Shown: positions 6,798-38,168 of the stretch, one piece after another
Layout: the number at the start of each line of letters is the position of its first letter
How positions within the stretch are numbered: the stretch's first letter is position 1
Assembly (NCBI GenBank): GCA_015039365.1
Contig: WION01000504.1
Coordinates: 1-38,586, forward strand
Reading direction: 5' to 3'
Length of the DNA stretch: 38,586 nt
DNA from: Amanita rubescens
Lineage: Eukaryota > Basidiomycota > Agaricomycetes > Agaricales > Amanitaceae
Translations under genes and position numbers: made by a program
The notes under the pieces: model-generated
Databases searched by the model: none
What the model saw: the letters and a program-made list of their open reading frames with translations, nothing else
Told to the model about the DNA's origin: nothing

Positions 6798-7197
6798 AAA
6801 CTGCGAGAAGTAATTCCATTTTATGATTTAGAACGTTTTGCCGTACACTTTTCTACGTAGTATCTGGACTGCACCAAGCACTGTGCCGCATTCCCAGTTT
6901 GTAAAGCAAAAGGTACGACGAGAGATTCGTTGACCACCGAAGTAACCGGTGACGTATGATTCAGAAAGCTTACTACTTCGTACACGTGTGCACCTTGAGC
7001 CCAACGCTGCGGGTCATTATTTCACAGCACGAGGATTTCATCTCCGTCTTTTGGCTTAGTTTGGATATTCGGAAAGGTTCCATGACAGACCTTCCATCAT
7101 AGAATATTGCCAAGTATATCAGTTATCACGGAGTAAGGCATGAGGTGTACCACATTTAAACTGAAATACAATTTGACGAGAATTGACATAAAATTTG
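6798..7197. other. Convergent spacer with one copy of the intergenic repeat R1
   Basis: This lies between the three-prime ends of CC4 and Hsp70 copy C. From about 6985 to 7090 it contains a sequence starting GTGCACCTTGAG, then TTTCACAGCACGAGGAT. The same block recurs upstream of CC2 genes at about 16200, 20490 and 25700, so it is a dispersed or duplicated intergenic element. No gene is visible. Confidence 0.45.
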
Positions 7198-9608
7198 TCA
7201 AGAAACGGAATCTGGGTCATAAACGATGGAAACAGGCCCTCTGAAGCCCCAAAGTCACATAACCATTTGGTTTGTAAATTAATCGTCAACGTACCGTTTT
7301 TCTACTCCCTGTTGACAGCGTCAGAGACGTTTCGTCATGGGGGAAAGGCAAGACGTACATTCTCGATCCATGCTATCTGAGCTTTGAGCTCCGTTAACCC
7401 GAGGAGGAGAACAATGTCGAACTCCAACGCGTAGTACTTGGAGCCGTGTGGACTATATTGAGGCTTAATCGAGTTCTTGACCTTCGTCATATCGGCAGTA
7501 ACTTTACAAAGATTAACGAAATGCGCTGTTGGGTGGAATGACTGTTAACAAGTCGTATACTAGGCAGCTTGAGTTATGCACCTGGGTCGACATCGATCCA
7601 AATAGGTGCATTGTCATTACGGCTTCGGTAGCAAATAATCTTATCTGACCAGGTTCGCAGAGACAGAGAGTTAAACGCAGAGCTAGAAAGGTAGAAGATA
7701 TAAGATGCTCTGAACTCTGTCTCCTCTTCAACCTTGGTATCCTATTGAAATTGTCAGTAAATGGATGGCATGGAAGTGTAAAGTCGACCTTTCTCAGTAT
7801 AGCTTCGAAGCCACCTGGAACCCAAATTTCCCCAGAGGGGGTTTCATAAGAAGTATGCGCTCGGGCAAGGTGGTCTGGACGACTTGGGTTGAAGGTAACC
7901 GAATAATCAGTTCCGTACGTGTATTTGGAGACTCGACTGGACACGAAGGGATCGATTGTGAATATTATAGCACCCTCTGCGACGGCTTTGTTTCTGATAC
8001 AAGAGTGTTAAATTAACGGATGTGAAGAAAGGTGTTTTTTGCTCACAGATAAGCGTCTGGTCTCAGGATGTCGATACCCTTCGGCCCGAAATGATCCTCC
8101 AATTTGGAAAACAGATAATCGGAGGTGGCAAACCCTCCGACCATAAATATAGCCTATACGTCAAGCTGTGAGCCATGACTATGACACATCCAGGCGTACT
8201 CTGATATTTGTCGTCGCCTTGCTGGTTTGTTCTTCGATGGCTTTGATAATTTTCTCTATGGCAGGTTCGAAAAACTTTGCAATGTTGACGCTAGATGCAG
8301 CGAAATTTATTATAGTATATCAAACATACGGTAGACGCAGTTTACCCATTGAGTTTGATACTTCCAGATCGAATATCGTGTTCTGGATCATTCTCATTTC
8401 GGCCAAAAGGTATAAAGTATGATCTCGAAGGTCCCCTAAAGCCAGGTTTCGTTATTTTATCGAAATACCTGGTCATAACCTCTATGTCTCTCTTCGTTCC
8501 GAACGGCGATCCACGAAGCTTCTCTAGAAATCATGATTAGATAAAGTACGTCTCATACGTGGTTATGCTGACCTGTCAGAAAAGTTTGCGCTCTATGAGT
8601 GACAAAGACCGAGCCCTACAAAAGACCTGAAGAAACGTAAGTATTGAGCTATGGAACAAGAAGCACCCGTACACTCTGCCGGAGCGATTTCTTTGAACTT
8701 GCTCCCCAACGTCATTGACTTCGACCGCGTATATGAACTAATGTCCACGGTTCCTCCTCCACAGTCAGCGACTAGTATGCCGTCATTGGCCTGTCACGAG
8801 TCAACAAGTCGGACACTGTAGAAGAATTGACCTACGTATTTCTTGAAAATATCAGGGATTTTGCTTAGGCAAAAATGAAGACTGGCCTCGCCTTCGGTCA
8901 CGAAGCTGATTCGTGCCAAGGCTTCATTTGCATTGACCAACCCTGCATTGATTGCCGCATGGCGCATTTCGGACTGCTGTTTACCCTCCCAGCCATTGGG
9001 GTGACTGAGGACGAACTCAATGTTGTTCCCAACAGATGCTAACATGTCACGGCCTTGTCGTTGTCAGATATACTGCGTTGTGGATTCATACATGTATCTC
9101 AACAGGTCACTGAAGATGTCGATGGCTGTCTTGTTCCCGGGAAGGCGAGGTATTTGTTCGTCATTGAACCCTTGCTCAGCAACAAGATGAGCTGGTCGAA
9201 GATGTAACTTAAACCTATATCACCATATTAGGAGAGAAGCGGCTAATAAAGAGTCGAAGCACACCATTCCGCTCGAATAAGATCTTCAACTTCCAAAAGT
9301 TCATGATTGGTCTCTACATCCGTTTCCGAGCCAACAGCAACAAGATTTCCACACTTGTCGTAACAAACGACACTGGGTATCTTGGAGTCACCGCCGACTG
9401 CTTGACCAGGGAACCTGGAAATGAACTCCAAGATGAGCTGTTTGCTTACCACTAGAACGGCAACTCACTGGGTAACGCCATGAATCACGGGCGTTTCGTG
9501 GGGTCTCAAAAACACGTAGGAGACGCCACTGAAGGTCGTGCCAATGTCAAGCGAAATAATGAGTTTCCTTTGAGATCCGTTATAAGGTTTTATTTGCGGT
9601 AAAGACAT
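7198..9608 (-). pseudogene. Hsp70-like ATPase, copy C (two nonsense codons)
   Basis: This copy has the same 13-exon plan as copy D. The start is ATG at 9608-9606; exon 1 is 9469..9608 and exon 2 begins at 9414. The phosphate-1 motif DIGTTFSGVSY and the phosphate-2 motif are present. The last codon is TGA at 7200-7198. Two stops interrupt the frame. TGA at 9066-9064 stands where D has CGA (in YIRQRQG). TAG at 8618-8616 stands where the others have CAG (in LLQG). Both are C-to-T changes on the coding strand. The exons checked are otherwise in frame, including NKAVAEGA and the C-terminal domain ending in RGPVSIVYD. It was therefore intact until recently. It is convergent with CC4. Confidence 0.82.
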
Positions 9609-9704
9609 GTGGGAGATGTTAGCTGGGCGTAGAGTTCTGAGACGGAAGTGAAATGGAAGTTCCACTCGGTCTCTCTTCCTGGCGCGGATTTGACCAAGAC
9701 CACG

Positions 9705-12684: not shown

Positions 12685-13367
12685 CATCCTGCTTCTTGAG
12701 AGACTCAGTCTCATCTACAACGTGCTCGTTGTTGTTCGCCCTTGCTTCCTATCTAAGTCTGAAGTCACCATTTCTTTCCTACTAACAGCAAGAAGTACAT
12801 AATTTGACAGATGATCGATAGATTGGCAGTGGTGGCACTATCTCAGAAGACCGTCGTGCTGCGCAACTAGAATGGCAGACTCAAAGGCCTCAAACCTTAT
12901 TTATATGACCACCATAACGTAATTCGCGTATCAAATGCTCTCGACAAGGGTCACATGTGAGCCACCGCTTCGTGTGGCATGGTCCGAGGCCAGGGCCTCA
13001 TATATATAGCTAGCTGCACAGGCATGGTTCATTTTTCGCGCACGCGTGGACCTCGAGTCGAAGGTCCGAGCACTCGTTTCACAGCATTGTTGGCTTGGTT
13101 TGGAGACAGTTCTTTGATGGGAGTAAGGCACGAGGCGCGTCAAAACAACAGACGCGCCGCGGAGTTGGAGCACACCGGGCCGTGTCAACGTCGTGGATGG
13201 CCCTGATAATCTTTTTTTGTACCTTAAATAAGAATTCCAGGCATCGCTAACTCGGCACATTTGCTAATAGGTTAATGCGACCGTAGCGGCACTTGTGACT
13301 CGAGACCTATTACATTTAAACGGAAATACATTTAACGCAGAAATATCATATAATCCGTCAAGAAACG
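12685..13367. other. Intergenic stretch with an R1-like repeat copy
   Basis: No gene is seen. From about 13030 to 13160 the sequence CGCACGCGTGGACCTCGAGT, then TTTCACAGCATTGTTGGCTT and TTTGATGGGAGTAAGGC, matches blocks found upstream of the CC2 genes (about 16090-16280 and 25430-25790). It lies just past the three-prime end of Hsp70 copy D, so the repeat is not tied to one gene end. Confidence 0.45.
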
Positions 13368-15794
13368 CTAGGGGTCTGGGTCATAAACGATGGATGCGGG
13401 CCCTCTGGAGTCCAAAGGTCAAATAAGCATATCGTTTGTCATGTTCGTCATCAACGTACCGTTTCTCTACTCCCTGTTGCACAGCGTCAGAGATATTTCG
13501 TCATGGGGAAAAGTAAGAGACACCGCACATTCTCAATCCATGCTATCTGCGCCTTGAGCTCCGTTAGCCCAAAGAGCAGAACAACATCAAATTTTAGTTG
13601 GTAGAACGGGACACCGCCGCGGGAATTGTATTCACGTTGAATGGAGTTCTTGACCTTGGTAACATCGGCAGTGATTTCGCAAAGGTCAACGAAGCGAGCT
13701 GTGGATGGGTTGGACAGTCAACAAGTCGTTTACGATGTAGTGCCTTAACTGAGGAACAAACCAGGGTCTACATCGATCCATGCAGGAGCGTCGTCCGAAC
13801 GATTTCGGTAGCATTTGATCTCAACAGACTTGGTCTGCAGATTGCGGAATGCAGAGTGAGAAACCACAGAAGTATAGGATGATCTGAACTCTGTCTCCTC
13901 TTCAACTTCGATATCCTATTGAAAATATTAGAGGCTGAATGGCATATAAGTGCGAAATCGACCTTTTTCAGTATGGCTGAGAAGGAATTTGGAACCCAGG
14001 TTTCCCCGGAGGGAACTTCATAACAAGTGTGTTGCCGGGCAAGGTGATCTGCACGATGCGAGTTGAAGACGTGGGAACATTGAATTCCGTAGGCGTATTT
14101 GGAAACTCGACTGGACACAAAAGGATGGATTTTGAATATTATAGCACCCTCTGCGACTGCTTTGTTTCTGACACGAGACCCATAAGTTAATGAATGTGAA
14201 TCGCAGCGTTTATTTTTGCTCACAGATAAGCGTCCGGTCTCAAGATGTCGATACCCTTCAACTTGAAATGATCCTCCAATTTGGAGAATAGATAATCCGA
14301 GGTGGCAAATCCTCCGACCATAAAGATACCCTGTACGTCAAGTTGTTGACTATGACACATCCAACTTCCTTCGAGACGTACCCTGATCCTTGTCGTCGTC
14401 TTCCTGGTCTGTTCTTCAATGGCTTTTATAATGTTCTTTATGGCAGGTTCAAAAAACCTCGCAATGTCGGCCCTGTATGCAATGAAAATTTAATACAGTA
14501 CACGGAATGTATGGTAAACGTATACCCGTTGAGTTTGATACTGCCAGATCGAATATCGTATACCGGATCATTCTCATTTCGACCAAAAGGTATAAAGTAC
14601 GATCTTGAAGGTCCCCTAAAGCCGGGTTTCGTCATTTTGTCGAAATATCTGGTCATAACTTCTATGTCTCTCTTCGTTCCAAACGTCGATTGACGAAGCT
14701 TCTCTAGAAAGCAGATTAGATCAAGTACAATCTCAGACTTGGTTTTGCCGACCTGTCAGAAAAGTTTGCGCTCTACGGGTGACAAAGTACGAGCCCTGCA
14801 AAAGGCCTAAGAAAAGTAAGTGTCGCACTACGGAAGAAGGAAGAGCATCCGTACACTCAGCCGGAGCGATTTCTTTGAACTTGCTCCCCGACGTCATTGA
14901 TTTCGATCGCGCGTATGAACTAATGTCCACGGTTCCTCCTCCACAATCAGCAACTAGTATTCCATCACCGGCCTACCACTAGTCAGCAAGTCGGACACTG
15001 CAGGAGAATTGACCTACGTATTTCTTGAAAGTATCAGGAATTTTGTTTAGGCAAAAGTGAAGACTGGCCTCGCCTTCGGTAACGAAGCTGATTCGTTCCG
15101 GGGCTTCATTTGCGTTGACCAAGTCTGCATTGATTGCCGCACGGCGCATTTCGGATTGCTGTTGACCTTCCCAGCCGTTGGGGTGACTGAGGATAAACTC
15201 AATGTTATTCCCAACGGATCTCAACATATCATCTCCTTGTCGTTGTCGGATATACTGCTTTGTTGATTTATACATGTATCTCAACAGGTCGCTGAAGATG
15301 TCGATAACTGATTTGTTCCGAGGCAGGGCAGGCATGTCTTTATCGTCGAACCCTTGCTCAGCAACAAGATGAGCTGGTCGAAGATGTAGCTTGAACCTAT
15401 ATCATGTTAGAAGAGAGGCCGCTAATAGTAATAAAAGGTCGGCGCACCATTCAGCTCGAACAAGACCTTGGATTTCTCGAAGTTCAGGATTGGTCTCTAC
15501 GTCTGTTTCCGAGCCAACGGCAACGACGTTTCCATACCTGTCGTAACAAACGACACTTGGAATCTTGGAATCACCGCCGACCGTCTGGCCAGGGAACCTG
15601 GAAAGTTACAATTCTAAGGTGAGGTGTCCGGTTGCCACTAGAAGGGCGACTCACTGGGTAACGCCAAGAATTACCGGTGTTTCGTGAGGTATCAAAAACA
15701 CGTAGGAGACGCCACTGAAGGTGGTGCCAATGTCAAATGCAATAACGAGTTTCCTTTGATACCCCTCATAAGGCTTTCTTTGCGGCAAAGGCAT
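13368..15794 (-). CDS. Hsp70-like ATPase, copy D (intact, 598 aa)
   Basis: This is the best preserved Hsp70-family gene here. The exons are complement(join(13368..13404, 13460..13473, 13529..13698, 13762..13915, 13963..14167, 14224..14330, 14382..14472, 14526..14703, 14753..14806, 14855..14972, 15018..15396, 15448..15597, 15655..15794)). All phases agree and introns are 45-63 nt. Motifs are phosphate-1 DIGTTFSG (D21), connect-type FVTEGEASLHF, phosphate-2 VADCGGGTVD (D232) and adenosine VGGFATSD (about 375). The nucleotide-binding domain ends at NKAVAEGA (407-414). A C-terminal domain of about 180 residues follows, lacking the normal Hsp70 substrate-binding sequence and lid. This matches the HSPA12-type architecture: a cytosolic ATPase with unknown clients. 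It is divergent from a CC2 gene about 630 bp away. Confidence 0.9.
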
Positions 15795-16421
15795 TCGGGA
15801 CATGCTGGCTGAGTGTGGATTGGTGCTTAGTCTAGATCCCTTGAGAACATTTAATACGTACGATTAGGGTGAACAAAACAGGGCTAGGGCTATCCTTGAG
15901 AATGGTGACATTGACAGTTGCGCAGCACGACGGCCTTCTGAGAATCATAGTAGTCATGGTGTTGGCTTCGATCACTGCCAACCCGATCTCCGTAGGTTTA
16001 CTTTCGTCTTATCATGCCCGGATTCAATCCCATCGACTATCATCGTATGATGTATAGGATGCGATTTAAATGTAAATCGGTTGCGGAGCGTCGCACACGC
16101 GTGGACCTCAAGTAGCATCCGTTGGTATTGACGGGAACGAAGTGCCACGTGTCCTGATCGATATAATTTTTACCTATACTCATTGGACTGTACCCTTGAA
16201 TCTCCTTTCACAGCACGGGGATTCTATCTTCATCGCATCGCTTGGTTGGAAGGTTCTTTGATGGGGGTCGGGGTGTCAAAATAATCATTAGAGTTCCGGC
16301 CCCCGACCCTGATATTACCCCTCACCCGAATGCCCGCTGACAGACGAACTTCGAGTACCACCGAACAACGACGAAGTTAGATTCTCTTTGCTTCGTGGCC
16401 TCACATATTGCTGACACTTAC
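15795..16421. promoter_or_regulatory. Divergent intergenic region between Hsp70 D and CC2 copy 1
   Basis: This spacer separates two divergently transcribed genes and so should hold both promoters. It contains an R1 copy at about 16075-16280 (CGCACACGCGTGGACCTCAA, then CACAGCACGGGGATTCTATC). It also holds a block at about 16300-16420 that is strongly conserved at 20820-20935 and 25858-25985, before the other CC2 genes. Within that block AACTTCG (16347-16353) and CGAAGTT (16372-16378) form an inverted repeat with an 18-nt spacer. The same spacing occurs at 20862 and 20887. Promoter activity is inferred from position and conservation only. Confidence 0.5.
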
Positions 16422-21055: not shown

Positions 21056-22281
21056 ATGCAAGCGGAACTTGACCCAAGGCGCACGAATGGAGGGTCCGTA
21101 AGACCAGAAGACCGGGTGAGCCTGACAAAGTGCAACCGTCGATAGCGTTAACTTTCTAATCGTTTCCTACAGAATACTTGTCCAAGTCCAGAGGTATGAT
21201 ACGGCGCCCCGTTGTTTGACAGAATCACTAATACCTTCCAGGTCCTCCAACTACAGCAGCGCGCCGATCAGTTACAACTCGAACTCAAACGTACCAAGCA
21301 GGTATGATACTGTGGCCACATTCTTTGACAGAATCGCTAAGAGCTTCCAAGGCCCTCCAACTACAGCAGCGCGCCGATCAGTTACAACTCGAGCTCGGAC
21401 GTACCCAGAAAGATTTGAGCTTGACAAAGCAAGGGTTCGAATTGGATGGAGTCTTTGGTAACAAAGCTGACATCGTCTCGGAGACGAACATTATAAACAA
21501 AGTGAAATCTCTGAACGACTGCATCTACCAGTTGGCTTCTGAAGTTACAGATGCACATACGGATAATGACATTCAGCTTTCCGAGAATCAACCGAGCAAC
21601 CACACGAAATCATTCTTTGGCGAATCCTTGTGCAACCTGGTAGTGGATGCTAAACAAAACTCGACATGTCCAAGAATCTTGGTTTCGCTTCAAGCTTGTA
21701 TGAACCACTTTTGTGTTCTAGTTCTATCCTCCGAATTCGATTCCATCCTTAATCCAGAGAAAACGCAGGAGTCACGTAAATAAGCAATTTTCCCCCTTCC
21801 TATGACCTATCTGATCCTCTACATTACAGAGCCGAAAGCTGCCTCAGCTCGGTGGAGAGCATACTCGGACACCCAAGCGCTGAAGCAGGACCAACAGTTT
21901 CTTTTCGCCCTGCTGACACGCCATCTGTCACGCTTGTATGGTTTTCCGGAAGAACAACTTCGGTCCGTGTTCGAGGAGGACTTTTCAAATCTTATTAACG
22001 AGACGATGGATCTTCGGAAAATGATGCATGGAGATTACGCTTCGGGTAACGTGAAGGTATTTGCTCCTTTACCAGGAAGTGAGTTCGATCCGGAGAAGAT
22101 GCAAGCGGATGACCCGACAGGCAGGACGCCGAAGCCGGCGGCTGGGCCCATCATGTGCACGACGGCAATAGGTATCACTCAGACGTTGTATATCCGACGA
22201 GGTCAAGGAGGTGAACGGGTCGACGTAAAGGAGCATAACGTGCTATCTCGAGCCAACGTTGTCGTAAGCTTCGACAATTGA
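21056..22281 (+). CDS. CC2 copy 2: coiled-coil protein, 338 aa, shortened N-terminus
   Basis: The model is join(21056..21115, 21173..21193, 21242..21301, 21352..21775, 21830..22281), in phase. The original first exon has lost its start region, and the first in-frame ATG is now at 21056 in the former second exon. The gene has the same 7-codon microexon and tandemly duplicated 60-nt coiled-coil exon as copy 1. The main exon has an in-frame deletion before the conserved phase-1 intron. After it come ARWRA, a basic helix, FDPEKM, MCTTAIGI and LSRANVVV. No membrane segment or named domain is seen. It converges on the CC1 half of chimera E across 127 bp of conserved spacer. Translation from 21056 is an inference. 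Confidence 0.7.
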
Positions 22282-22408: not shown

Positions 22409-25093
22409 TCAAGATGCGTGAGTATCAAGGGCTACTCTCGGTTTCAACAACATCCGTTGTCCTCCAGCGCGATTTTGCAAAGCGAGACCAAGCTCTACCG
22501 TACAGAGGACAGGTGCCTGGACCCCGGGAGACGCTTGCCCTTCTGCGTCCATCAAGGATGGGTTGAAGTGCTGCCCAGCCCGCACATACGTGACCTGCAA
22601 GTCGTCCGAGACGAACTCCTCGCGGATCATCTTAGACGTCTTGGCCACGAATGTAGCGATCTCGTTGATGCAAACGCTCAACTCTTCAAGTAAAGCCTTA
22701 ATCTGCCTCGTCTCGACTTTCCAACCGATACAGATCAGGAGGTGTGACAGGAGGGTATAGATTTCGCGTTGAACTTGATCGCCACTCATATTGCATAGCT
22801 GTTTATGTGTCAGGGCTCTCCAGTGGGGCCTGCAACGGTTTGCTTCTCTAAAACGCGTCGTTAGCCATGCAGCAGACTTTGAGGAAGACGTGTATCGCTG
22901 GCCCAGATCTGTTCGTATGCGAGGTTGAGAATCCCATGCTGAGGTTCGTGGCCACGCCCAAAAACCCATGAAGAGATGGCGGAAAAGCACACGTGAATTA
23001 TGCCACTCTGGAAAGCGAGGATAGGGAATGACTTGTCCTCTTGTCCGATGGTTTGCGCGAGGTGAAGCAATCGCTCGCCAATGACACTGACAGAACAGAT
23101 CCGTGCCTGAACCTGCAGGCGTTCCATATCCGCCGCGGGTGCAGGGAGGGCTGTAGGAGGGGCGGGTTGTTCGATAGAGATTAACTGCACAGCTGTTTGG
23201 TATATGGCGGAATTGAGGCCTTGTACTGTCGGTCGCTGAGACCTGGTCGGTAATGAAAGTGAACTCGCGTGCGGCGGTCAGCTCGACGGCTTGCGTGTCG
23301 ACGAGCTTCTTGAGCGCGTCCCTCTGTTCACGGAGAGCCTGAAGCTCGTCTTGCGCCGCTCTCAGTTCTCTGTTGTATTCTTTCTGAAGCAGGTCAAAGT
23401 CGTTCTTCGTAAGACGGCGTTGCGGTTCACTGGACACAAAATATTCGATTTTGAATATCATAGCACCCTCCGCGACCGTTTTGTTTCTGATGCAAGAGCC
23501 TTAAGTAAATGAATGCGAAGCGCAGCGCTTTTTTGCTCACATATAAGTGTCCAGTCTCAAGATGTCGATACCCCTCAACTTGAAATGATCCTCCAATTTG
23601 GAAAACAAATAATCGGAGGTAGCAAATCTTCCAACCATAAAGATAGCCTATCGTTTTCAGTTATGACACATCCAACTTTCTTGCAGACGTACTCTGATCC
23701 TTGTCGCCGTCATCCTGGTTTGTTCGTCGATGGCTTTTATAATGTTCTTTATGGTAGGTTCAAAAAACTTCGCAATGTCGATGCTATATGCAATGTAATT
23801 TTATCACTGTACATTGAACGTATGATAAACGTTTACCCATTCAGCTTGATCGTGCCAACTCGAATATCGTGTTCTAAATCTTGCTCATTTCGACCAAAAC
23901 GTATCAAGTATGATCTCGAAGGTTCACTAAAGCTAAGTTGGGTCACTCCGTCAAAATATCTAGTCATAACTTCTATGTCTCTCTTCGTTCCAAACGTCGA
24001 TCGACGAAGCTTCTCTAGAAAGCATGATTAGATCAATTACATCGCAAAATTGGTTATGCCGACCTGTCAGAAACGTTTGCGCTCTACGGGTGACAAAGAA
24101 CGAGCCCTGAAAAAGGCCTAAGAAAAGTAAGCTTTGCGTCAGGGAAGGAGAAGCACCCGTACACTCAGCCGGAGCGATTTCTTTGAACTTACTCCCTGAC
24201 GTCATTGATTCTGATCGCGCATATGAACTAATATCCACAGTCCCTCCTCCACAGTCCGCGACTAGTATTCCATCACCGGTCTATCACCAGTCAGCAAGTC
24301 GGATATTGTAGTACACTTGACCTACGTATTTCCCGAAAGTATCAGGACATTTGTTTAGGCAAAAGTGAAGACTAGCCTCGCCTTCGGTGACGAAGCTGAT
24401 CCGTTCGGGGGCTTCATTTGCGTTGACCAAATCTGCATTGATTGCCGCAGGGCGCATTTCGGATAGCTGTAGGCATTCCCAGCAGTTGGGGTGACTGAGG
24501 ATAAACTCAATGTTATTCCCGACGGATCTCAGCATGTCATCTCCATGTCGCTCTCGGATATACTGGTTGGTTGATTTATACATGTATCTCAACAGGTCGC
24601 TGAAGATGTCGATAACTGACTTGGTCCGAGGCAGCGCAGGTATGTCTCTATCGTCGAACCCTTGCTCAGCAACAAGATGAACTGGTTGAAGATGTAGCTT
24701 GAACCTATATCATGTTAGTAGAGAGGCCACTAATAAAAGGTCGGCGCACCATTCAGCTCGAACAAGACCTTGTATTTCTCGGAGTTCAGGATTGGTCTCT
24801 ACGTCCGTTTCCGAGCCAACGGCAACGACGTTTCCATACCTGTCGTAACAAACGACACTTGGAATCTTGGAATCACCGACGCCCGTCTGCCCAGGAAACC
24901 TGGAAAGTGATCCTAAGATGAGGTGTCTAGTTACCACTAGAAGGGCAACTCACCGGGCAACGCCTTGAATTACTGGCGTTTTGTCAGGTATCAAAAATGC
25001 GTAGGAGACGCCACTGAAGGTGGTGCCAATGTCAAATGCAATAATGAGTTTCCTTTGAAATCCGTCATATGGCTTTCTTTGCGGTAAAGGCAT
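22409..25093 (-). pseudogene. Chimera E: Hsp70-like nucleotide-binding domain fused to CC1, coiled-coil half broken
   Basis: The Hsp70 part starts with ATG at 25093 (exon 1 24954..25093). All its exons are open, with DIGTTFSG and VADCGGGTVD intact, but the adenosine motif reads VGRFATSD. After NKTVAEGAMIFKI and FVSS the frame runs straight, at about 23430, into CC1 (EPQRRLTK, matching EGQRRITK of intact CC1). The Hsp70 C-terminal domain and the CC1 membrane anchor are both missing. Downstream the CC1 part is damaged. An 11-bp deletion near 23230 shifts the frame just before the LNSAIYQ helix. A small insertion alters the W-R-A region near 22825. The last exon is otherwise open to the stop at 22409. 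The fusion is real in the sequence. The protein, if made, would be truncated after the coiled coil. Confidence 0.8.
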
Positions 25094-26003: not shown

Positions 26004-27266
26004 ATGAACATCGGCTCCATCCTGCGTCGCGTAGACAATTGGCTCGGTGGCAAAAGTGGACGTGTAAGCCGTATATCTTTGAATAACACCCTCGCTGACG
26101 TCGACAATAGCCCCCCGTAAATGAAATAGGTTCGCCTACATCTGCTGGAGAGCCTTCATCCGCTCTCGTGCAAGTGGCACCTGACCGGGACCCAACACGC
26201 GCGAATAGAAGGTCTGCAAAAGCGGATCAGGTGAGGGTGACAAAATGCAACCATCGTTCTTTGGTAGAATCACTAAGAGCTTTCCAGGTCCAGGTCCTCC
26301 AACTACAGCGGCGCGCCGATCAGTTACAACTCGAACTCGACCGTACCAAGAAAGAATTGAGCTTGACAAAGCAAGAGCTCGAATCGAATAGGGTCTTTGG
26401 TAACAAAGCTGACGTCGTCTCGGAGACGGACATTATAACCAAAGTGAACGCCCTGAACGACTGCATCTACCAGTTGGCTTCTGGGATTGCAGACGCACAT
26501 CAGGATAACGCCATCAAGCTTTCGAAGGATCAACCGAGCAGCAACACGAAATCATTCTTTGGCGAATCCTTGTGCAACTTCGTAGTGGATGCCAAACAAA
26601 ACTCGACACATCCAAGAATCTTGGTTTCGCTTCAAGCTTGTATGAACCACTTTTGCGTTCTAGTTCTATCCTCCGAATTCGATTCCATCATTAATCCAGA
26701 GAAAACGCAGATGCTCCAACAAATCTCTGATGCTATAAAGGCGTCACGTAAATAAGCGCTTTCCCCTCCCTATGAGCCATCTGATCGTCTGCGTTACAGA
26801 ACCGAAAGCTGTCTCAGCTCGGTGGAGAGCACTGGTATACTCGGACAATGAGGCTAGTCGGATCTTGAAGCAGGACCAACAATCTCTTTTCAGTCTGCTA
26901 ATACGCCGTCTCTCACGCTTGTATGGTTTTCCGGAAAAACAACTTCAGTCCATGTCCGAGGAGGACTTTTCAGAACTTATCAACAAGACGGTGGATCTTC
27001 GGAAAATGATGTATGGAGATTACGTTTCGGGTGACGTGGATGTATTTGCTCCTTCACCCGGAAGCGAATTCGATCCGAAGAAGATGCAAGTGGATGATCC
27101 GAGAGGCAAGTCTCAGAAGCTGGCGGCTGGGCCCATCATGTGCACGACGACAATAGGAATTGCTCGGACGTTGTACATCCGGCGGCGTCAAGGGGATAGA
27201 TGGGTCGACGAAGAGGAGTACAACGTGCTATCTCGAGCCAACGTTGTCGTGAACTTTGACGATTGA
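26004..27266 (+). CDS. CC2 copy 3: coiled-coil protein, 368 aa, complete
   Basis: This is the reference CC2 copy. The model is join(26004..26063, 26111..26230, 26288..26747, 26800..27266), in phase, with ATG at 26004. Residues 1-20 are a short basic/aromatic start. Residues about 61-95 form a strong coiled coil (LQRRADQLQLELDRTKKEL). LNDCIYQLA is near 116 and ILVSLQACMNHFCV near 185. After the conserved phase-1 intron come ARWRAL (220-225), FDPKKM (about 304) and MCTTTIGI (about 327). Only one copy of the coiled-coil exon is present, unlike copies 1 and 2. There is no signal peptide or membrane span, so the protein is probably cytosolic. It is divergent from chimera E and convergent with a CC1 remnant. 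Function unknown. Confidence 0.78.
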
Positions 27267-27399: not shown

Positions 27400-27912
27400 C
27401 AAGCAGGTGTCTGCGTATCGAGGGCTACCCTTGGTTTCAACAACAGCTGTTGTTCTCCAGCACGATTTCGCAACGCGAGACCAAGCTCTACCGTACCGAG
27501 GACAGGTGCCTGCAAATCATCGGAGACGAACTCCTCGCGGATCATCCCGGAAGTCTTGGCCGAACTCGGCGATGCACTCTCTCAACTCTTCCCTAAGCAA
27601 CGCCCGAATATGCCGCGGCTCGGCACTCCAACCGACAGAGATCAGGAGGCAAAACAGGAGGCCATGGATTTCGCGTTGGACTTTATCGCCATTCATATTG
27701 GATAGTCATGTATGTGTCAGAGCTCTCCAGCGGCCTGCAACCGCTTGCTTCTCTGTAGCGCGTCGTCAACAATGCGGTCGATGTTGATTGTGGAAATTTT
27801 AGGCACGTACCGCTGGCCCAGATCTGTTCGTATGTGACGTTGAGAATTTCATTTTGAGGTTCGTGGCCACGCCCAAAAACCCATGAAGAGATTGGGGAGG
27901 AACATACGTGGG
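27400..27912 (-). pseudogene. CC1 remnant, C-terminal half
   Basis: The minus strand matches CC1 from the ISSWV(Y/F)GRGHEPQNE region through the W-R-A motif and the EEFVSDDLQ region to its end. It carries an internal deletion before the C-terminal motif and several frame changes. It sits in the usual convergent position after CC2 copy 3. The missing upstream half lies inverted at 28268-28487. Confidence 0.72.
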
Positions 27913-27938
27913 CGTCTTTTCCACCTTCACTATATGAT

Positions 27939-28238
27939 GTGGCAACTCTCTTTCCCCCTCCAAAACGTAAAAAACTTCACCATGGTGTTCCAGAACCTAA
28001 GCAGGAGCTCACAAAGCAAGCATCTAATGTCATAGTCCAGTTTGTGTCTGACGTTGACGGCGAGATCGCACTATCACCATCCCTGAAAATCTCCCCCCTC
28101 GAAACACTCGTCAACAAGCTTAGGCCCAATGACGACGAACCGGTGCCGTTTGCCTTCCACCTAGTCCCAGTGCACCGGATGTCCGTTGGTGGCCCAGCAG
28201 GAACAGGTTCCCCCAAAATAATTTCGGGAGCGGCATAA
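27939..28238 (+). pseudogene. Fragment of a Notchless-type (NLE1/Rsa4) ribosome-assembly gene
   Basis: The open frame reads as the N-terminus of a fungal Notchless homologue: PPPKRKKL at the start, then an NLE domain (NVIVQFVSDVDGE, SPLETLVNKL, DDEPVPFAFHL). This family acts in 60S subunit maturation and normally continues into eight WD40 repeats. Here the frame stops at 28238 and no WD repeat follows. The first codon reads GTG where ATG is expected. It is therefore a displaced five-prime fragment, lying inside an inverted segment between two halves of a CC1 remnant. Identification rests on remembered family sequence and is fairly sure. Confidence 0.65.
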
Positions 28239-28267
28239 AGGCGCGGAATGCCAAGCTGACTGGCGGG

Positions 28268-28487
28268 TTTGGTAAAAGATATACCAAACTTCTATCCAGT
28301 TAATCTCCATCGAACAACCCGCTCCTGCTACGGCCCCCTCTGCATCATCCGCCGCGGATACGGAACGCTTGTAGGTCCAAGCACGAATCTATTCCGTTAG
28401 TGTCATTGGCGAGCGATTGCTTCACCTCGCGCAAACGGTCGGACAAGAGGACGAGTCGTTCCCGATCCTCGCTTTCCAGACTCCAGA
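28268..28487 (+). pseudogene. CC1 remnant, upstream half, inverted
   Basis: On the plus strand this reads YQTSIQLISIEQPAPATAP, a stop (TAG after ERL), then VQARIYSV, IGERLLHLAQTV and FPILAFQ, where similarity ends. It continues exactly where the minus-strand remnant at 27912 begins (AHVC). Inverting 27913-28487 would therefore make the two halves contiguous on the minus strand. Confidence 0.72.
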
Positions 28488-28665: not shown

Positions 28666-30848
28666 ATGCCCACCCTCGCTAATACTGTAGGAATTATTGG
28701 CACCGGTCCTGCCGGTCTTATCACTGCTCACGTCCTGATACAAGATGGGTTTGACGTCCAGCTGCTTACAGAGGACAGCTCTCCTGGAGGCGTCTGGGCC
28801 AGGCATCGTATCTACCCCGGCATGAAGATTAACAAGTACGTTACCTGGACGCTTGTCCCTCATCTGTTAAATGATTTGCCATAGCCCCCATGGAGAGTAT
28901 TGCTTCTCTTCTTTGTCCATGCCATTGCCTGAGGACTCCGCAAAGACTGGCGGTCGACTGTCCGGAGAACATTTATGCAATTACATGGAAACGTTTGCGG
29001 AGACATTTTTGAAAGATAAAATCAAATTTGAGGTTGAGGTCCTCAACATACGGCGGTCTCCTAGCGGCTCCTGGAACGTGGATATCAAGGACAAGCGCGA
29101 GGGAACCATAACAACCCTTGAATACTCCCGACTTGTCCTGTGCACTGGCGTCAGTACTCAGTTTGAAAATGTTTGAACAGCTTCTGAAGTATGCGTATTT
29201 ACAGGGTTGCCATTTACCCAGTGTCCCTAAAGCCTTGTCGGAATCGGCTGCGGAAGCTGCTGGATTCGACGGCCTCATCGTCCATTCAAAGAACTTTGCG
29301 TCAAATTTGGATAACATTCTTGAGCGGACCAACTCTGAGAGTGAACCCAAACACGTCGTCGTCGTAGGAGGCGGTAAATCCGCCCAAGAGTAGGATATCG
29401 CGTTCTCTTGCACCCGCTCCAAGAATCTGATATTCTGGTAGTGCGTCCTGCCACCTGGTAAATCAGGGTCGAAATGTTGCCATTGTGTTTAACAAAGCAG
29501 ATGCCCCGCTAGCCAACAAGAAGCCGCTCCCTAACTATCTTCGCAGAAGTCGGCAAGTGGCAAGTCATCGCTCTTCTCTTCTGATTACTGAATTTGTTCA
29601 AATAAGATTGTTGAGCACACTGTCCCCTCATATTGAATTACGGACACGCCTAGAGTCAGTCTTTGACCTTTCCCCGATCTCTCGTTCTCCTCACGATAAT
29701 CCTCTAGACGATTCTTACACACGACCTGGCTGGGGAGTAAAATCACACATTTCGTTTGGGATACATTATCTTCGTCATCGGTACATAATTTCCGTTACCT
29801 CCATCATACGACCCAGCTGTCTGACACTCCACCATTAGCTTGACGTACTCGAAGTCCCCCAAAACTCTCCACTCCGAAACACTAAATCACTTTTCTGGAA
29901 CATGCACAGCACTGATGAGGGGGTATACCGCCCAGACAGCTTCTATGCTGCAGTCAGTCGGCGAGACATCCAGGCTTTCCCTTCAACCCATGTGGAAGGC
30001 TTCGGTGCGGACGGCCGCTCTGTGATTCTGAGTACGGGCGAAAGCTTGCCGGCGGATGTTGTCATTTTAGCCACAGGCTTCACATCATCTTGGAGCCGTC
30101 TATTTGATGGTTCGTTTTTGTTCATCGTGGTTTTTTGGGAACGTGAGGCTGAAAGTTATGTATCTTGTTACTAGCCGAGACGGCAGAAGAGCTGGGGATT
30201 AACAAGCATCCTCCACAAACACAGGTGAAGGATGCTTGGGAGTCCTTTATGACCCTGAGGGATGCGCCGGCAGCCCATCCGGATAGCGAACAATGGGCGT
30301 CCTCGATCCATCGTGGCATTGTTCCCGCGAAGAACATTGAAAAGCGTGATTTTGCTATTAACGGTGCTATTGTACGTAGTCAAGCCGTCAACCCATCGAA
30401 TCTATTCTCACACATGCTTGCAGTTTGGGGCCAATATTGGCTACACATTAGAAGTTGCGGCTCACTGGATATCTTCGTACTTCCTCGAAGATATAATGCA
30501 GCTTCCGTCTTCTGCAGAAGAAGCACTGGTTGCTGGGGAGTACTATGCTGCATGGCTGAGGAAGCGGTTCCCAAATGAGTGTATGCTCGTCAACGAGAGC
30601 TACTGCGGTGCTCTCTGCTTGTGGGAGTAAGTTCTTCAGCATAAATGTCGCTTTTTTGGTTGATCTTTTGTTTTTTATTCAGCTGGTGTCAACATGTGGA
30701 TACATTACTCATGGATATGCATCTTCCTTATATGCGAAGTGGTGGAAATTGGTTCACGTGGCCTTTCCAGGTGATCGAGCAGAAGGAGATCGCAACACTT
30801 GGTGAAGAGCGGCGGGTGAGGAGGCTTGCCATAAGTTCGTCGTCCTAG
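28666..30848 (+). pseudogene. Flavin-containing monooxygenase, interrupted in the middle
   Basis: This is an FAD- and NADPH-dependent monooxygenase of the FMO type. Exon 1 (ATG 28666) has the FAD Rossmann motif GIIGTGPAGL and the GGVWARH segment. It splices at MKINN into HGEYCFSSLSMPLPE. The exon at about 29205 has the NADPH motif VVVGGGKSAQ, followed at once by an in-frame TAG (29391-29393), and the next 500 bp cannot be read as one continuous gene. From about 29910 to 30848 it is open again: YRPDSFYAAV, VILATGF, GYTLEVAAHWIS, and a C-terminal WPFQVIEQ exon ending in a stop. Both ends look functional, so the break is probably recent. An unrecognised intron at GA/GTAGGATATC is a weaker alternative. 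It is inserted between module copies and has no obvious tie to them. Confidence 0.7.
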
Positions 30849-30999: not shown

Positions 31000-31360
31000 G
31001 ACTCGCCTGTCACGCTTGTATGGTTTTCCGGAAAAACAACTTCAGTCCATGTTCGAGGAGGACTTTTCAACAAGACGGTGGATCTTCGGAAAATGATGTA
31101 TGGAGACTACGTTTCGGGTGACGTGGAGGTATTTGCTCCTTCACCCGGAAGCGAATTCGATCCGAAGAAGATGCAAGTGGATGATCCAAGAGGCAAGTCT
31201 CAAAAGCTGATGGCTGGGCCCATCATGTGCGCGACGACAATAGGAATTGCTAGGACGTTGTACATTCGGCGACGCCAAGGAGATAAATGGGTTAACGAAG
31301 AGGATAATAAGTTATAACGTGCTATATCGAGCCAACGTTGTCGTAAACTTTGACAATTGA
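31000..31360 (+). pseudogene. CC2 remnant 4 (C-terminal part)
   Basis: The sequence is close to CC2 copy 3 from LSRLYGFPEKQLQ to the end. A deletion of about 10 bp near 31068 shifts the frame in EEDFS, and an insertion near 31310 breaks the end (WVNEEDNKL then stop). The five-prime half is missing at the FMO insertion side. It keeps its convergent position to chimera F. Confidence 0.75.
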
Positions 31361-31489: not shown

Positions 31490-34337
31490 TCAAGCAGGTG
31501 CGTGAGTATCAAGGGCTACCCTCGGTTTCAACAACATCTGTTGTCCTCCAGTGCGATTTCGCAACGCAAGACCAAGCTCTACCGTGCCGAGGACAGGTGC
31601 CTGGACTCCGGGCGAAGCTTGCCCTTCTTCTGCGTCCATCAAGGATGGGTTGAAGTGCTGCCCAGCCCGCACATAAATGACCTGCAAGTCATCCGAGACG
31701 AACTCCTCGCGGATCATCCTGGAAGCCTTGGATACTAACGCGGCGATCTCGTCGATGCACTCTCTCAACTCTTCCTCGAGCAAAACGCGAATCTGCCGCG
31801 GCTCGGCTTTCCAACCGATACTGATCAGGAGGTAGAACAGGAGGGCTTGCATTTCACGTTGAACTTTATCGCCGCTCATATTGGATAGCTGTTTATGGGT
31901 CAGCGCTCTCCAATGGCCTGCAACGGGTTGCTTCTCTACAACGCGCCGTCAGCAATGCGGTTGACGCCAATTGTGAAAAAGGGCGACGTACCGTTGGCCC
32001 AGATCTGTTCGTATGCGAGGTTGAGAATTTCGTTCTGAGTTTCGTGGCCACGCCCATAAACCCATGAAGAGATAGCGGAAGAGCACACGTGGGCTATGCC
32101 ACTCTGGAAAGCGAGGATAAGGAACGACTCGTCCTCTTGTCCGACGGTTTGCGCGAGATGAAGCAACCGCTCGCCAATAACACCAACGGAATAGATTCGT
32201 GCCTGGACGTGCAAGCGTTCCGTATCCGCGGCGGATGCAGAGGGGGCCGTAGCAGGAGCGGGTTGTTCGATGGAGATTAACTGGATAGAAGTTTGGTATA
32301 TGGTAGAATTGAGGTCTTTTACCGTCCGACTAACGTTGGCCGCTGAGACCTGGTCGGTCATGGGGGTGAACTCATGTGCGGCGGTCAGCCCGACGGCTTG
32401 CGTGTCGACGAGCCTCTTGAGCTCGTCGGTCTGCTCACTGAGAGCCTGAAGCTCTGCTTGTGCCTGGTCGGTCATGAAAGTAAACTCGCTTGCGGCGGTC
32501 AGCTCGACGGCTTGCGTGTCGAGGAGCTCCTTGAGCTCGTCGGTCTGCTCACGGAGGGCCTCAAACTCGTCTTGTGCCGCCCTCAATTCTCTGCTGGATT
32601 TCTCTTGAAGCCGGTCAAAGCCGTTCTGCAGTTTCGTAAGACGGTGATGCGCTTCACAGCCTGGGGACACAAAAGGTTCCATTTTGAATATTATAGCACC
32701 CTCTGCAACAGCGTTGTTTCTGATACAAGAGCCTTAAGTTAATGGATGCGAAGCGCAGCATTTTTTGCTCACAGAGGAGCGTCCGGTCTCAAGATGTCGA
32801 TACCCCTCAACTTGAAATGATCCTCCAATTTGGAGAACAGATAATCGGAGGTAGCAAATGTTCCGACCATACAGATAGCCTTTACGTCAAGTTGTTAGTT
32901 ATGACACATCCAACTTTCTCAGAGACGTACTCTAATCCTTGTAGTCGTCTTCCTAGTCTGTTTTTCGATAGCTTTTATAATGTCCTTTATGGTAGGTTCA
33001 AAAAACTTCGCAATGTCGATGCTATATGCAATGAAATTTTATTATAGTACATTGAGCGTATGATAAACGTTTACCCATTGAGTTTGATACAGCCAGACCG
33101 AATATCGTGTTCTGGATCATGTTCATTTCGACCAAAACGTATAAAGTGCGGTTTTGAAGGTTCCCTAAAGCAGGGTTTCGTCGTTTTGTCGAAATATCTG
33201 GTCATAACTTGTATGTCGCTCTCCGTTCCAAACCTCGATAGATGAAGCTTCTCTAGAAAGCATGATTAGATCACATACGTCACAAACTTGGTTATGCTGA
33301 CCTGTAAGAAAAGTTTGCGCTCTACGGGTGACAAACAACGAGCCCTGCAAAACGCCTAAGAGATGTAAGTGTTGCGTCAGGGAAGGTGAAGCACCCGTAC
33401 ACTCAGCCGGAGCGATTTCTTCGAAATTGCTCCCCGACGTCATTGACTTCGATCGCGCATATGAACTGATGTCCACAGTTCCTTCTCCACAGTTAGCGAC
33501 TAGTATTCCGTCATTGGCCTACCACAACTCAGCAAGTCGGATACTGTAGTAGAATCGACCTACGTATTTCTTGAAAGTATCAGGAATTTTATTTAGGCAA
33601 AAATGAAGACCGGCTTCGCCTTCGGTGACGAAGCTGATTCGTTCCGGGGCTTCAATCGCGTTGACCAAATCTGCATTGATTGCCGCATGGCGCATTTCGG
33701 ATTGCTGTCGGCCTTCCCAGCCGTTGGGGTGACTGAAGATAAACTCAATGTTATTCCCAACGGATCTCAACATGTCATCTGATCTCTGTCGGATATACTC
33801 CTTCGTGGATTTATACATGTATCTCAACAGGTCGCTGAAGATGTCGATAACTGACTTATTCCGAGGAAGTGCAGGTAAGTCTTTATCATCGAACCCTTGC
33901 TCTGCAACAAGACGAGCTAGTCGAAGATGTAGCTTGAACCTTATATCACCTTGTTAGGAGAGAGGCAGCTGATAAAGAGTTGGAGCACACCATTCCGCTC
34001 GAACAAGACCTTCAACTTCCAGGAGCTCAGGATTGGTATCTACGTCTGTTTCCGAACCAACAGCAACGACATTACCATACGTGTCGTAACAAACGACACT
34101 TGGAATCTTGGAATCACCGCCGACTCGGAATTGCCCAGGGAACCTGGAAAGGAATCCTAAGATGAGGTATCCGCCGGTTACCACTAGAAGGGCAACTCAC
34201 TGGGTAACGCTATGAATTACCGGCGTTTCGTGAGGTATCAAAAATACGTAGGAGACGGCACTGAAGGTGATGCCAATGTCAAACGCAATAACGAGTTTCC
34301 TTTGAGATCCGTCATCAGGCTTTGACGCGCGGGACAT
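31490..34337 (-). CDS. Chimera F: Hsp70-like nucleotide-binding domain fused in frame to CC1, 795 aa, fully open
   Basis: The model is complement(join(31490..31935, 31992..32719, 32773..32879, 32931..33021, 33075..33252, 33302..33355, 33401..33518, 33564..33939, 33991..34143, 34201..34337)). All junctions are GT...AG and all phases agree. Residues 1-424 are the Hsp70-like ATPase domain through NNAVAEGA and FVSP. Residues 425-795 are CC1: coiled coil, LNSTIYQ, FLILAFQSGIAHVC, GHWRAL, FNPSLM and VELGLAL. The Hsp70 C-terminal domain and the CC1 anchor (CC1 residues 1-80) are absent. A 38-residue unit of the coiled coil is duplicated (about 453-528). Nucleotide-contacting motifs are altered: DIGITFSA for DIGTTFSG, VANCGEGTVD for VADCGGGTVD, VGTF for VGGF. 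ATP hydrolysis is therefore doubtful, yet no stop or frameshift exists. It may be a pseudo-ATPase or a very young pseudogene. Confidence 0.8.
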
Positions 34338-34429: not shown

Positions 34430-34645
34430 TGTTTATATGGTAACTAATGACGTGGAGGTATTTGCTCCTTCACCCGGAAGCATATTCGATCCGGAGAAGA
34501 TGCAAGTGGATGATCTGAGAGGCAAGTCTCAAAAGCTGGTGGTTAGGTCCATCATGTGTACGACGACAATAGGAATTGCTCGCATCGCGTTGTACGTCAA
34601 GGAGATAAATGGGTCGACGAATGTTGGATATTTACTGTAATGAAC
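34430..34645 (+). pseudogene. CC2 remnant 5 (short internal fragment)
   Basis: It matches CC2 from DVEVFAPSPGS through FDPEKMQVDD and IMCTTTIGIA, then degenerates. It starts only about 100 bp upstream of the start codon of chimera F and lies convergent with the intact CC1 gene, so it is the leftover of another module copy. Confidence 0.7.
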
Positions 34646-34709: not shown

Positions 34710-36010
34710 TCAAGCAGGTGTGGGAGTATCAAGGGCTACCCTCGGTTTCAACAACATCTGCTGTCCTCCAGCGCGATTTCGCAACGCGAGACCAAGCTCT
34801 ACCGTACCGAGGACAGGTGCCTGGACCTCAGGCGAAGCTTGCCCTTCTTCTGCATCCATCAAGGATGGGTTGAAGTACTGCCCAGCCCGCACATACGTGA
34901 CCTGCAAATCGTCCGAGACGAACTCCTCGCGGATCATCTTGGAAGTCTTGGCCACGAACTCGGCGATCTCGTCAATGCACTCTTTCAACTCTTCCATAAG
35001 CAACGCCTGAATATGCCGCGGCTCGGCACTCCATCCAATAGAGAGCAGGAGGCAAAACAGGAGGCCATGGATTTCGCGTTGAACTTTATCGCCATTCATA
35101 TTAGACAGTTGTGTATGTGTTAGAGCTCTCCAGCGACCTGCAACAGCTTGTCTCTCTATAACGCGTCATCAGCAATGCGGGTCGACGTTGATTGTGGAAA
35201 TTTTAGGCACGTACCGCTGGCCCAGATCTGTTCGTATGTGACGTTAAGAATTTCATTCTGAGGTTCGTGGCCACGCCCATAAACCCATGAAGAGATGACG
35301 GAGAAGCACACGTGGGCTATGGCGCTCTGGAAAGCGAGGATCGGGAACGACTCGTCCTCTTTTCCGACGGTTTGTGCGAGGTGGAGCAATCTTTCACCAA
35401 TGGCATTGATGGTATTGTTTCGTGCCTGAACCTGCAGGCGTTCCATATCCGCGGCGGGTGATGCAGAGGGGGTTGTAGTGGCAGGAGTGGGTTGTTCGAT
35501 GGAGATTAACTGCATAGCAGTTTGGTATATGGCGGAATTGAGGTCTTGTACTGTCCGACTAACGTCGGCTGCTGAGACCTGGTCGGTCATGAAAGTGAAC
35601 TCGCGTGCGGCGGTCAGCTCGACAGCTTGCGTGTCGACGAGCTTCTTGAGTTCGTCCCTCTGCTCACGGAGAGCCTGAAGCTCGTCTTGTGCCGCTCTCA
35701 GTTCTCTGCTGTATTTCTCCTGAAGCCGGTCAAGGTCGTTCTGCAGCTTCGTAATACGGCGTTGCCCTTCAGTGGCCTTCGTATTCCAATTATTCTCTTT
35801 CGTTTTGAAGGCCCGGGCTGCATCGTTCGCTCTGCCTTTTACCGATGAAACGTCTCCCTGTAGTTCATCGATTTTGCTTTCCTGTTCCCTATTTGCGTTT
35901 GAGAAGCTGTCACATTGGCTCTGTAGACTCCGTATATGCTGCTGTTGCCTGAGAACGTAGTAAAGGATGAGCACTGCGACAAAAAGCAACAACACGGGGA
36001 GAACAATCAT
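34710..36010 (-). CDS. CC1: membrane-anchored coiled-coil protein, 413 aa, intact
   Basis: The model is complement(join(34710..35155, 35215..36010)), with ATG at 36010 and one 59-nt phase-1 intron. Residues 2-20 (IVLPVLLLFVAVLILYYVL) form one membrane segment or signal anchor. About 130 residues of coiled coil rich in Q, E, K and L follow. Then come LNSAIYQTA (157-165), a low-complexity P/A/T linker, FPILAFQSAIAHVC (222-235), and after the intron the conserved GRWRAL (272-277), FNPSLM and VELGLAL. This is the only CC1 copy with its own N-terminus; E and F carry its residues from about 80 onward behind Hsp70 domains. A tethering role, with the coil facing the cytosol, is inference. It belongs to no family I can name. 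CC3 lies upstream on the same strand. Confidence 0.85.
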
Positions 36011-36431: not shown

Positions 36432-37930
36432 TCAGCTGTCTTCATCGCTCGCGACAATGGCATTCAGTTTAGATTGCAGGACGATTTTCGGCCTTAGGAG
36501 GACCGAGGATTTCCAATCGTTTTCTTTAACCTTTTCATGTCGGATAAGACCTAAATCCGTCGTACAAAGCACGCCTTCAGTCGCTACTCCGTTTTCTTTT
36601 ACTGACTGGTCCTGGAAAGTGTCTTCCATTGTGGCCTCGTCGTAAACTTGATCCGGCTCAATGTAGAGCATTTCAAGCTCACATGACGTTACGTCTTCCC
36701 CCAGTACCTTTTTCAGTTCCTGTGATTTTCTGACGATCTTTTCAACATCGCCGGAGAACCTGGACTGTATTATATCAGCGACGTGGGAGTGCTCCTTATT
36801 CAGGCCAGCCGCAACCAGGATCGTGACAAATGCATCCAGGAAATACATCGTCAAATCTGGCCCTTCGCCTATCATCTGCTGGACGTGTTTTCTCGTCATT
36901 GCCCTCCATCGTCCGTATATCGCTTGGTCCTCTAGATGGATTTGATCGTCAGATCGGTAGGATCGCGAGGATACGAAGACTTACCCGAATCTCTGATATG
37001 AGTGTACACGTCCCTCAATAGTTGCTCGTTATCAGGGCTCTCAAAGTACCAGGATGATATGATCCATTGGACGTATGCGCAGAGGCCACCCTGAAAGGCT
37101 ATTTGGACCAGTATCGGATCCTCGTTGTGTTCAGAAGCCGTGAGCAGCTGGACCATGCGTGGTCCGACGGTCTCGGTAGCACGAGCAAGTGCTTCTTCGA
37201 CATCTTCTGAATTAATATCCCCTTCTCCCCCATTCTTCGGCCCGAACGTAAATGCATCCGCGACCAAAGCGGAAACCTGGAGTATCTCCGCATTAAGCGC
37301 GTCGACCAGGTTTACGACATCGACATTGGACAGTTTATCCGCGGTCGTCAAGAACGCCTGAGCGGCCTTGAGTTCCGCAGTCCGGGTCTGGAGCAACTCC
37401 TGCGCTTGCTCGTATTTCACCCTCACGGCGTCTAGCTCTCTCCGACTCTGCCATAACCTTTCCTCCAACATTACCAGCTCTCTTTTCGCGACCGTCGTCT
37501 CATTACGCGCCTCCAGCAACAGCCGTTGCGTCTCGTCCACGTCCAATTTCAGACGATCCGTTTGCGTTTTTAAAGCGCCCACCGCAGCCTCTCGCACCTG
37601 CAGTTGACTCAGAGTTGCCTGCAATTGCTCCTGAACGTCAAACGATGTTCCTTTCAGACTATCTGTCTGAGTTTTGAGAACGGCAATCGCATCGTCTCGC
37701 GCCTGCAGTTGGGCACGCGTGTCATCCAAAGTTCGCTGGAGATTGGCAATGTCCGCATCCTTCCTTTCCTGCAACTCCTTCATTTCGACTTCTTTACGTC
37801 TTCTTTGCCGAGAACCATTCGACCAGAACTTTGCGCCTCCACAAAGGGACGCAACGACGCCAACGACGGTAGCCATGCGGATGATTGTGACTGTAGAGAG
37901 AGAGTTGGCCAGGGCATTCTTCACGAGCAT
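36432..37930 (-). CDS. CC3: coiled-coil protein with N-terminal hydrophobic segment, 481 aa
   Basis: The model is complement(join(36432..36931, 36985..37930)), with ATG at 37930 and a 53-nt phase-1 intron at the same place as in CC1, CC2 and CC4. Residues about 12-36 (TVTIIRMATVVGVVASLCGG) are hydrophobic enough for a membrane anchor and are followed by a basic stretch (RQRRRK). A coiled coil of about 150 residues contains two similar units (LKTQTDSLK, LKTQTDRLK). Then come LNAEILQVSALVADAF, ILVQIAFQGGLCAYVQW, GRWRAM (about 322-327), YDEATM, LCTTDLGL and LLRPKIVL. The architecture parallels CC1. It is divergent from Hsp70 G across 238 bp, which suggests a shared promoter. Function unknown. 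Confidence 0.85.
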
Positions 37931-38168
37931 GATGTAGTTGCTTCCCTGCCTTACTTAGCTGGAACTCCATGAGGTTTAGACCTTTAAAACGTGTGAAATG
38001 CCCGATTTTTTTGATGTCCGGATTGCCTCGTGTTTGGATTGAGGCACTGCGGATAAACGTAAGCTTTGAACGCGTTTCACAAACACGCCTGAACACGCTT
38101 CTCCCGCAGTCTTATTAAAACCTGTGCTTTCATCACCTCACACTCAACGTTCCTCTCTGATCACGGTC
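37931..38168. promoter_or_regulatory. Bidirectional promoter region between CC3 and Hsp70 G
   Basis: Only 238 bp separate two divergent start codons. TATTAAAA at 38113-38120 lies about 50 nt before the Hsp70 G start. A TTTAAA element at about 37983-37988 lies about 55 nt before the CC3 start on the other strand. I saw no clear heat-shock element (inverted GAA units). Co-regulation is an inference from the arrangement. Confidence 0.55.

Follow-up and report, generated by a model that had tools for sequence, protein, structure and literature searches.

A chimeric gene joining an HSPA12-like Hsp70 nucleotide-binding domain to an Amanita coiled-coil family in a tandem array of Amanita rubescens

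The window, that is, the whole stretch of 38,586 nucleotides analysed here (contig WION01000504.1, hereafter C445, of the 75.7 Mb Amanita rubescens assembly), contains a fused gene, F2, on the minus strand at 31490..34337. Spliced translation of 34337-31490 gave ten exons (34337-34201, 34143-33991, 33939-33564, 33518-33401, 33355-33302, 33252-33075, 33021-32931, 32879-32773, 32719-31992 and 31935-31490, all on the minus strand) that encode 795 codons and a stop, without internal stops and with nine GT-AG introns of 45-57 nt each, in agreement with the preliminary description, which had read the gene as ten exons joining into 795 open codons. A nine-exon model of 810 codons was dropped, as it had overlooked the 45-nt intron 33400-33356; in full-length relatives, P0003 among them, AEC-LLQGS is read across this intron, supporting the ten-exon model. 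The homologue search and the pairwise dN/dS estimates reported below used the 810-codon version, in which 15 codons are intron, and the branch dN/dS estimates used the 795-codon version.

The 5′ part of F2 (32665..34337, minus strand; residues 1-423) corresponds to an HSPA12-like Hsp70 nucleotide-binding domain (NBD). The 3′ part (31490..32656, minus strand), beginning at about residue 427, corresponds to CC1 in its coiled coil and C-terminal domain. CC1 stands alone as a coiled-coil gene whose product has a hydrophobic N-terminus (34710..36010, minus strand; two exons, 413 aa, 99% identity to database protein P0121). It is of the parent type of the 3′ half of F2, which showed 86-88% DNA identity to 36010-34710. 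In self-alignment of the window, Hsp70 similarity ended at 32665 and CC1 similarity began at 32656, so the junction (32656..32665, minus strand) lies in frame some ten residues past the AVAEGA helix, where the end of the NBD had been placed. The fusion enters CC1 at about residue 83, and approximately the first 80 residues of CC1, including the hydrophobic N-terminus (residues 1-20 of P0121, by eye), are missing from F2. The earlier proposals that the membrane anchor of CC1, here regarded as a putative anchor, had been dropped and that the Hsp70 C-terminal domain had been lost were both borne out, the latter by the family C-terminal domain being unmatched in the fusion proteins P0001, P0002 and P0005. 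An Hsp70-type NBD fold was predicted by fold search for the protein of the F2 allele on contig C777, in a model whose CC part was barely probed. With stand-alone CC1 as the query, the fold search found no match at E 0.001, which says little given a low-confidence model (pLDDT 57). Pfam searches with single exons yielded no more than weak matches, none reaching the curated cut-offs, and a single-sequence search of PDB with P0003 generated no match.

A 38-codon in-frame tandem duplication within the coiled coil (32349..32578, minus strand) is present in F2 and its two alleles and is absent from the other fusion copies C94, F1, C777a and C133a. The environmental protein P0134, encoded on a 1,769-base contig, shows this duplication too when inspected by eye, which suggests that an independent sample also contains an F2-like gene. 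Immediately upstream of F2, window positions 34448-34580 are a 133-base copy of 31119-31251, the 3′ part of the neighbouring coiled-coil gene; the promoter of F2 may therefore be short or borrowed.

Full-length HSPA12-like relatives in the window include HspA (7152..9625, minus strand; located by self-alignment) and HspB (13312..15811, minus strand), which has a normal C-terminal domain and has splice sites in common with F2. Open frames at 16600-17781, 21232-22281, 26111-27266 and 31000-31317 (plus strand) and at 36432-37954 (minus strand) encode a coiled-coil part followed by a C-terminal domain of the W-R-A/C-T-T type. They alternate with the Hsp70 genes and appear by eye to be distant CC1 relatives; the frame at 31000-31317 generated no Pfam match. 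Scrambled and partly inverted CC1 fragments with 77-94% identity to other copies, a remnant of exchange in the array, occupy 27506-28480, and open pieces at 28871-30630 (plus strand) resemble, by eye, a flavin-dependent monooxygenase. A different CC1 chimera was seen at two further loci of the assembly, L047 (contig C649) and L035 (contig C117), where the C-terminal part of CC1 follows upstream sequence without Hsp70 similarity and the break lies at about residue 103. The description of the Hsp70 and CC1 families as repeatedly adjacent held in the window and extended to other species, as relatives of both were found on contigs of equal size, with close locus tags, in A. polypyramis (28,899 and 8,834 bases) and A. 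inopinata (24,923 bases). Co-location was not found among the listed matches of A. phalloides and A. thiersii, giving three of five species including A. rubescens.

The A. rubescens assembly was searched for further copies with a 501-base probe over the F2 junction. The probe matched 32 places, 10 of which span both sides of the junction, with 83 to 98% identity to F2, on contigs C445 (two copies, F2 and F1), C50 (two), C777 (174,126 bases; three), C133 (two) and C94 (107,967 bases; one). An assembly join near 32660, named in the preliminary description as an outcome that would undo the fusion, is thus rejected, the junction being common to ten copies on five contigs. The state of each copy was judged by projecting the F2 exons onto it. 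Only F2 and the C94 copy keep an open frame from end to end together with conserved splice sites; the other eight are broken, whether by frameshifts or stops, by the loss of splice sites or by replacement of the 5′ part. The second fusion copy of the window, F1 (22409..25093, minus strand), has a frameshift and a lost splice donor in its CC1 half, and a stop close to the junction interrupts its relative on C50. Single-base insertions break the F2 alleles of C50 and C777, C777a and C133a carry several frameshifts each, and the first exons of C777b and C133b are replaced. The F2 allele of C50 contains five 1-nt insertions inside 115 nt of exon 10, yet only 2 of 446 aligned bases differ. Such clustering of insertions amid few substitutions suggests sequencing error, in which case eight broken copies of ten may be too many; the four insertions that were classified extend no homopolymer, which speaks against sequencing error. 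The F2 versions on C445, C50 and C777 are 98.4-99.4% identical to each other, and as all three occur in one assembly, the array is present in more than two versions.

The annotation of the arrays is uneven. P0001, derived from the frameshifted C777 allele, is annotated as a full fusion in which two NBD stretches are skipped at the 1-nt frameshifts of that allele, and it is consequently no independent proof of a fused protein. The open C94 copy is represented, among the matches listed, by P0126 (268 aa) only, which covers just the last 268 aa of the copy. The chimeric gene, part known Hsp70 and part a coiled-coil family of Amanita without a name, is real, and its protein product is predicted.

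As the copies have one junction in common, a single fusion event followed by duplication is indicated. In the best NBD tree, which was built without four misoriented or badly aligned rows (HspD twice, HspC of C777 and Hsp of C94), full-length HspB was nested within the fusions with supports of 88 and 92. A single fusion clade was not rejected by the NBD data (AU p 0.063), and the nesting of HspB could be explained by gene conversion in the array. The CC tree was weakly supported and included one badly aligned row (C649). The C777 allele of F2 showed 24 differences in the 446 bases of exon 10 and 22 in 2402 bases elsewhere, an excess that looks like a gene-conversion-like exchange.

In the homologue search with the NBD, 7,990 candidates were scored and the best 120 of 154 matches were listed. 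A family C-terminal domain was matched, at least in part, in 115 of the 120; the five exceptions were P0001, P0002, P0005, P0016 and P0030. A search of Agaricomycete proteomes for an HSPA12-like domain followed by the W-R/C-T-T domain had been suggested, and proteins that carry CC1 behind an HSPA12-like NBD were found (P0001, P0002 and P0005), in A. rubescens only, among the matches listed. Stand-alone CC1 as the query also matched the fusion proteins P0005 and P0002, and the CC half of the C94 fusion matched the CC1 protein P0121 at 1.0e-143. CC1 matches came only from Amanita and from sequences without an organism name (17 in one search and 7 in another). One CC1 relative, P0128 (A. polypyramis AX15_005103; 576 aa), has a long repeat-rich stretch as its N-terminal region and generated no Pfam match.

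The ATP site was examined at 16 motif positions in an alignment with 117 homologues, which were the 120 listed minus the three fusion proteins; proteins with two NBDs were represented by one NBD. F2 departs from its relatives at five positions in the motifs named phosphate-1, phosphate-2 and adenosine in the Hsp70 literature, none of which is intact in F2. These are Ile for Thr (Thr in 112 of 117) and Ala for Gly (Gly in 103) in phosphate-1, Asn for Asp (Asp in 114) and Glu for Gly (Gly in 112) in phosphate-2, and Thr for Gly (Gly in 113) in the adenosine motif. The remaining 11 positions are unaltered. As the five sites were picked as those where F2 departs from its relatives, five of five is by choice, and the distribution over the homologues served as the control: 102 of the 117 had no change at these sites, ten had one, one had two, one had three, two had four and one had all five. 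All three F2 alleles carry the same five changes, the C94 copy retains all five residues, and F1 alters one and keeps four (adenosine motif VGRF). The label of ATPase domain given to F2 in the preliminary description is therefore doubtful.

The homologue altered at all five positions is P0030 (A. polypyramis AX15_002042), the only one of the 117, in which the NBD ends at 417 and a BTB/POZ domain (PF00651, 3.4e-8) lies at 448-562. With the same boundary and a decayed ATP site, this NBD-BTB arrangement raises the prospect, at the level of sequence, that swapping of the C-terminal domain may recur; alternatively, the gene model of P0030 could be mis-merged. P0016 (Suillus subalutaceus, 921 aa) has two Hsp70 NBDs, an unmatched family C-terminal domain and, in the aligned NBD, changes at four of the five ATP-site positions, and is possibly another pseudo-ATPase arrangement.

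Selective constraint was estimated for each half of the fusions. Neutral evolution of F2 along the entire branch (synonymous divergence about 0.12) would be expected to leave about 10 stops, and none was observed; an open frame by chance was therefore rejected for F2. With HspA as the outgroup, branch dN/dS of the NBD was 0.44 (0.25-0.78) for F2, 0.41 (0.26-0.66) for F1, 0.56 (0.31-1.05) for C94 and 0.15-0.19 for HspB. With C117 as the outgroup, branch dN/dS of the CC half was 0.59 (0.34-1.29) for F2, 0.46 (0.24-1.04) for F1 of C50, 1.17 (0.62-4.05) for C94 and 0.18-0.29 for CC1. The values of the fusions were thus about 1.6 to 5 times the parental ones, and with these outgroups the intervals reached 1 in C94 for the NBD and the CC half alike and in F2 for the CC half; the value of the C94 CC half was indistinguishable from neutral. 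The same triples with HspC as the outgroup gave intervals too wide for use. Pairwise dN/dS between F2 and C94 was below 1 in both halves (810-codon version), and a few F1-type pairs exceeded 1 on very few differences (F1-C133a, 1.76; C777a-C133a, 1.11). Divergence between F2 and C94 was 0.144 in exons and in introns alike. Of the indels between these two copies, all nine in exons have a length divisible by three, unlike four of the six in introns (Fisher p 0.011), a contrast that mostly restates openness, because C94 was picked as the other open copy. Frame-breaking exon indels separate F2 from F1 (3), F1 of C50 (2), C777a (2) and C133a (6). We read these data as indicating that, during much of their existence, the fusions were translated and retained, selection being weak or recently lost; recent neutrality is possible because the branch dN/dS is raised.

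Tentatively, and with a probability of roughly 0.45, we propose that F2, born once in the tandem array, encodes with its NBD-CC1 open frame a soluble protein that has ceased to cycle on ATP and acts as a scaffold or decoy. A single recombination inside the Hsp70/CC array would have created the fusion, which would then have been duplicated. Lacking the Hsp70 C-terminal domain, the NBD would be unable to power the usual substrate cycle; the CC1 part, having lost the hydrophobic N-terminus, would be soluble; and the coiled coil would oligomerise the NBD into a multivalent scaffold. Such a protein might compete with, or bridge, the stand-alone Hsp70s and CC1 of the array. In the F2 lineage, the ATPase would have become a pseudo-ATPase with an ATP-independent action, the C94 copy having kept its ATP site. 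We infer the scaffold step purely from domain logic, and the CC1 model, at the pLDDT given above, is of low confidence.

A serious rival, though judged the less probable, is that the fusions are functionless by-products of unequal exchange and that F2 and C94 are merely the copies still without a lesion. Such decay would account for the raised dN/dS, which is highest in the CC half of C94, for exon divergence equal to that of introns, for eight broken copies of ten with 2 to 6 frame-breaking indels between F2 and the four copies compared, and for the lost ATP site of F2. It fits poorly with the absence of the stops expected in F2 under whole-branch neutrality and with pairwise F2-C94 dN/dS below 1, and sequencing error may account for some of the lesions seen in the F2 alleles of C50 and C777. 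It is unlikely that the fusion is a working ATPase whose NBD powers the CC1 part through an ATP cycle; the NBD fold predicted for the protein of the C777 allele and the complete ATP site of C94 would allow for this, whereas in F2 the residues T, G, D, G and G of most homologues are replaced by I, A, N, E and T, and both of its alleles agree. Less probable still are two genes read as one, with an Hsp70 gene ending and a CC1 fragment beginning inside exon 9: P0126 does start at a Met inside the CC half, but this start would lose the coiled coil, and the junction lies within one open exon, with no stop, intron or spacer, in both F2 and C94. An assembly or sequencing artefact at 32660, conceivable on a short contig (38.6 kb) of an assembly with several near-identical array versions, is highly improbable for a junction found in ten copies.

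Hsp70s usually couple one NBD to one substrate-binding domain. A gene in which this coupling is severed at the domain border and a coiled-coil partner put in its place, with a possible second swap, to BTB in the sister species A. polypyramis, would show that the NBD of an Hsp70 can serve anew as a module on its own, perhaps independently of ATP. The fusion further suggests a connection of HSPA12-like proteins with a coiled-coil family of Amanita to which the matches give no functional name. More speculatively, and with little confidence, the HSPA12-like NBD of Amanita might be an exchangeable recognition module, in which the ATP site decays and the C-terminal domain is then swapped (CC1, BTB), forming a fast-turning decoy or scaffold family comparable to modular immune or allorecognition receptors.

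A literature search yielded nothing on an HSPA12-like NBD-CC1 fusion in the matched portions of the papers listed, including PMC2266713 and PMC7550596, and nothing among the listed matches on a role of HSPA12-like proteins in fungi. Human HSPA12A/B are termed the most diverged Hsp70 group in the portion of PMC2266713 that was matched. With the HSPA12-like Hsp70s of Agaricomycetes, some of which carry the database labels 'Heat shock 70 kDa protein 12A' or 'Heat shock protein 12A' (P0041, P0047 and P0086), F2 shares the NBD at 35-75% identity to the other listed homologues, but it has CC1 in place of the C-terminal domain and a degenerate ATP site. Ssz1 is an atypical Hsp70 of the ribosome-associated complex; unlike F2 it has no coiled-coil fusion, and the comparison stays at the level of the fold. 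The double-Hsp70 proteins of Agaricomycetes (P0004, P0006, P0016 and others) likewise place an Hsp70 NBD in a multi-domain chain, but as two tandem Hsp70 units with no CC1 part. The Amanita CC1 proteins (P0121, P0122, P0125, P0127 and P0136) share the coiled coil and C-terminal domain with F2, whereas those whose sequences were read (P0121, P0122, P0125 and P0127) have no NBD but an N-terminal part of their own that includes a hydrophobic stretch. P0030 resembles F2 in its HSPA12-like NBD, in the same five altered ATP-site positions and in a C-terminal domain missing from the same boundary, and differs in that a BTB/POZ domain, not CC1, follows the NBD.
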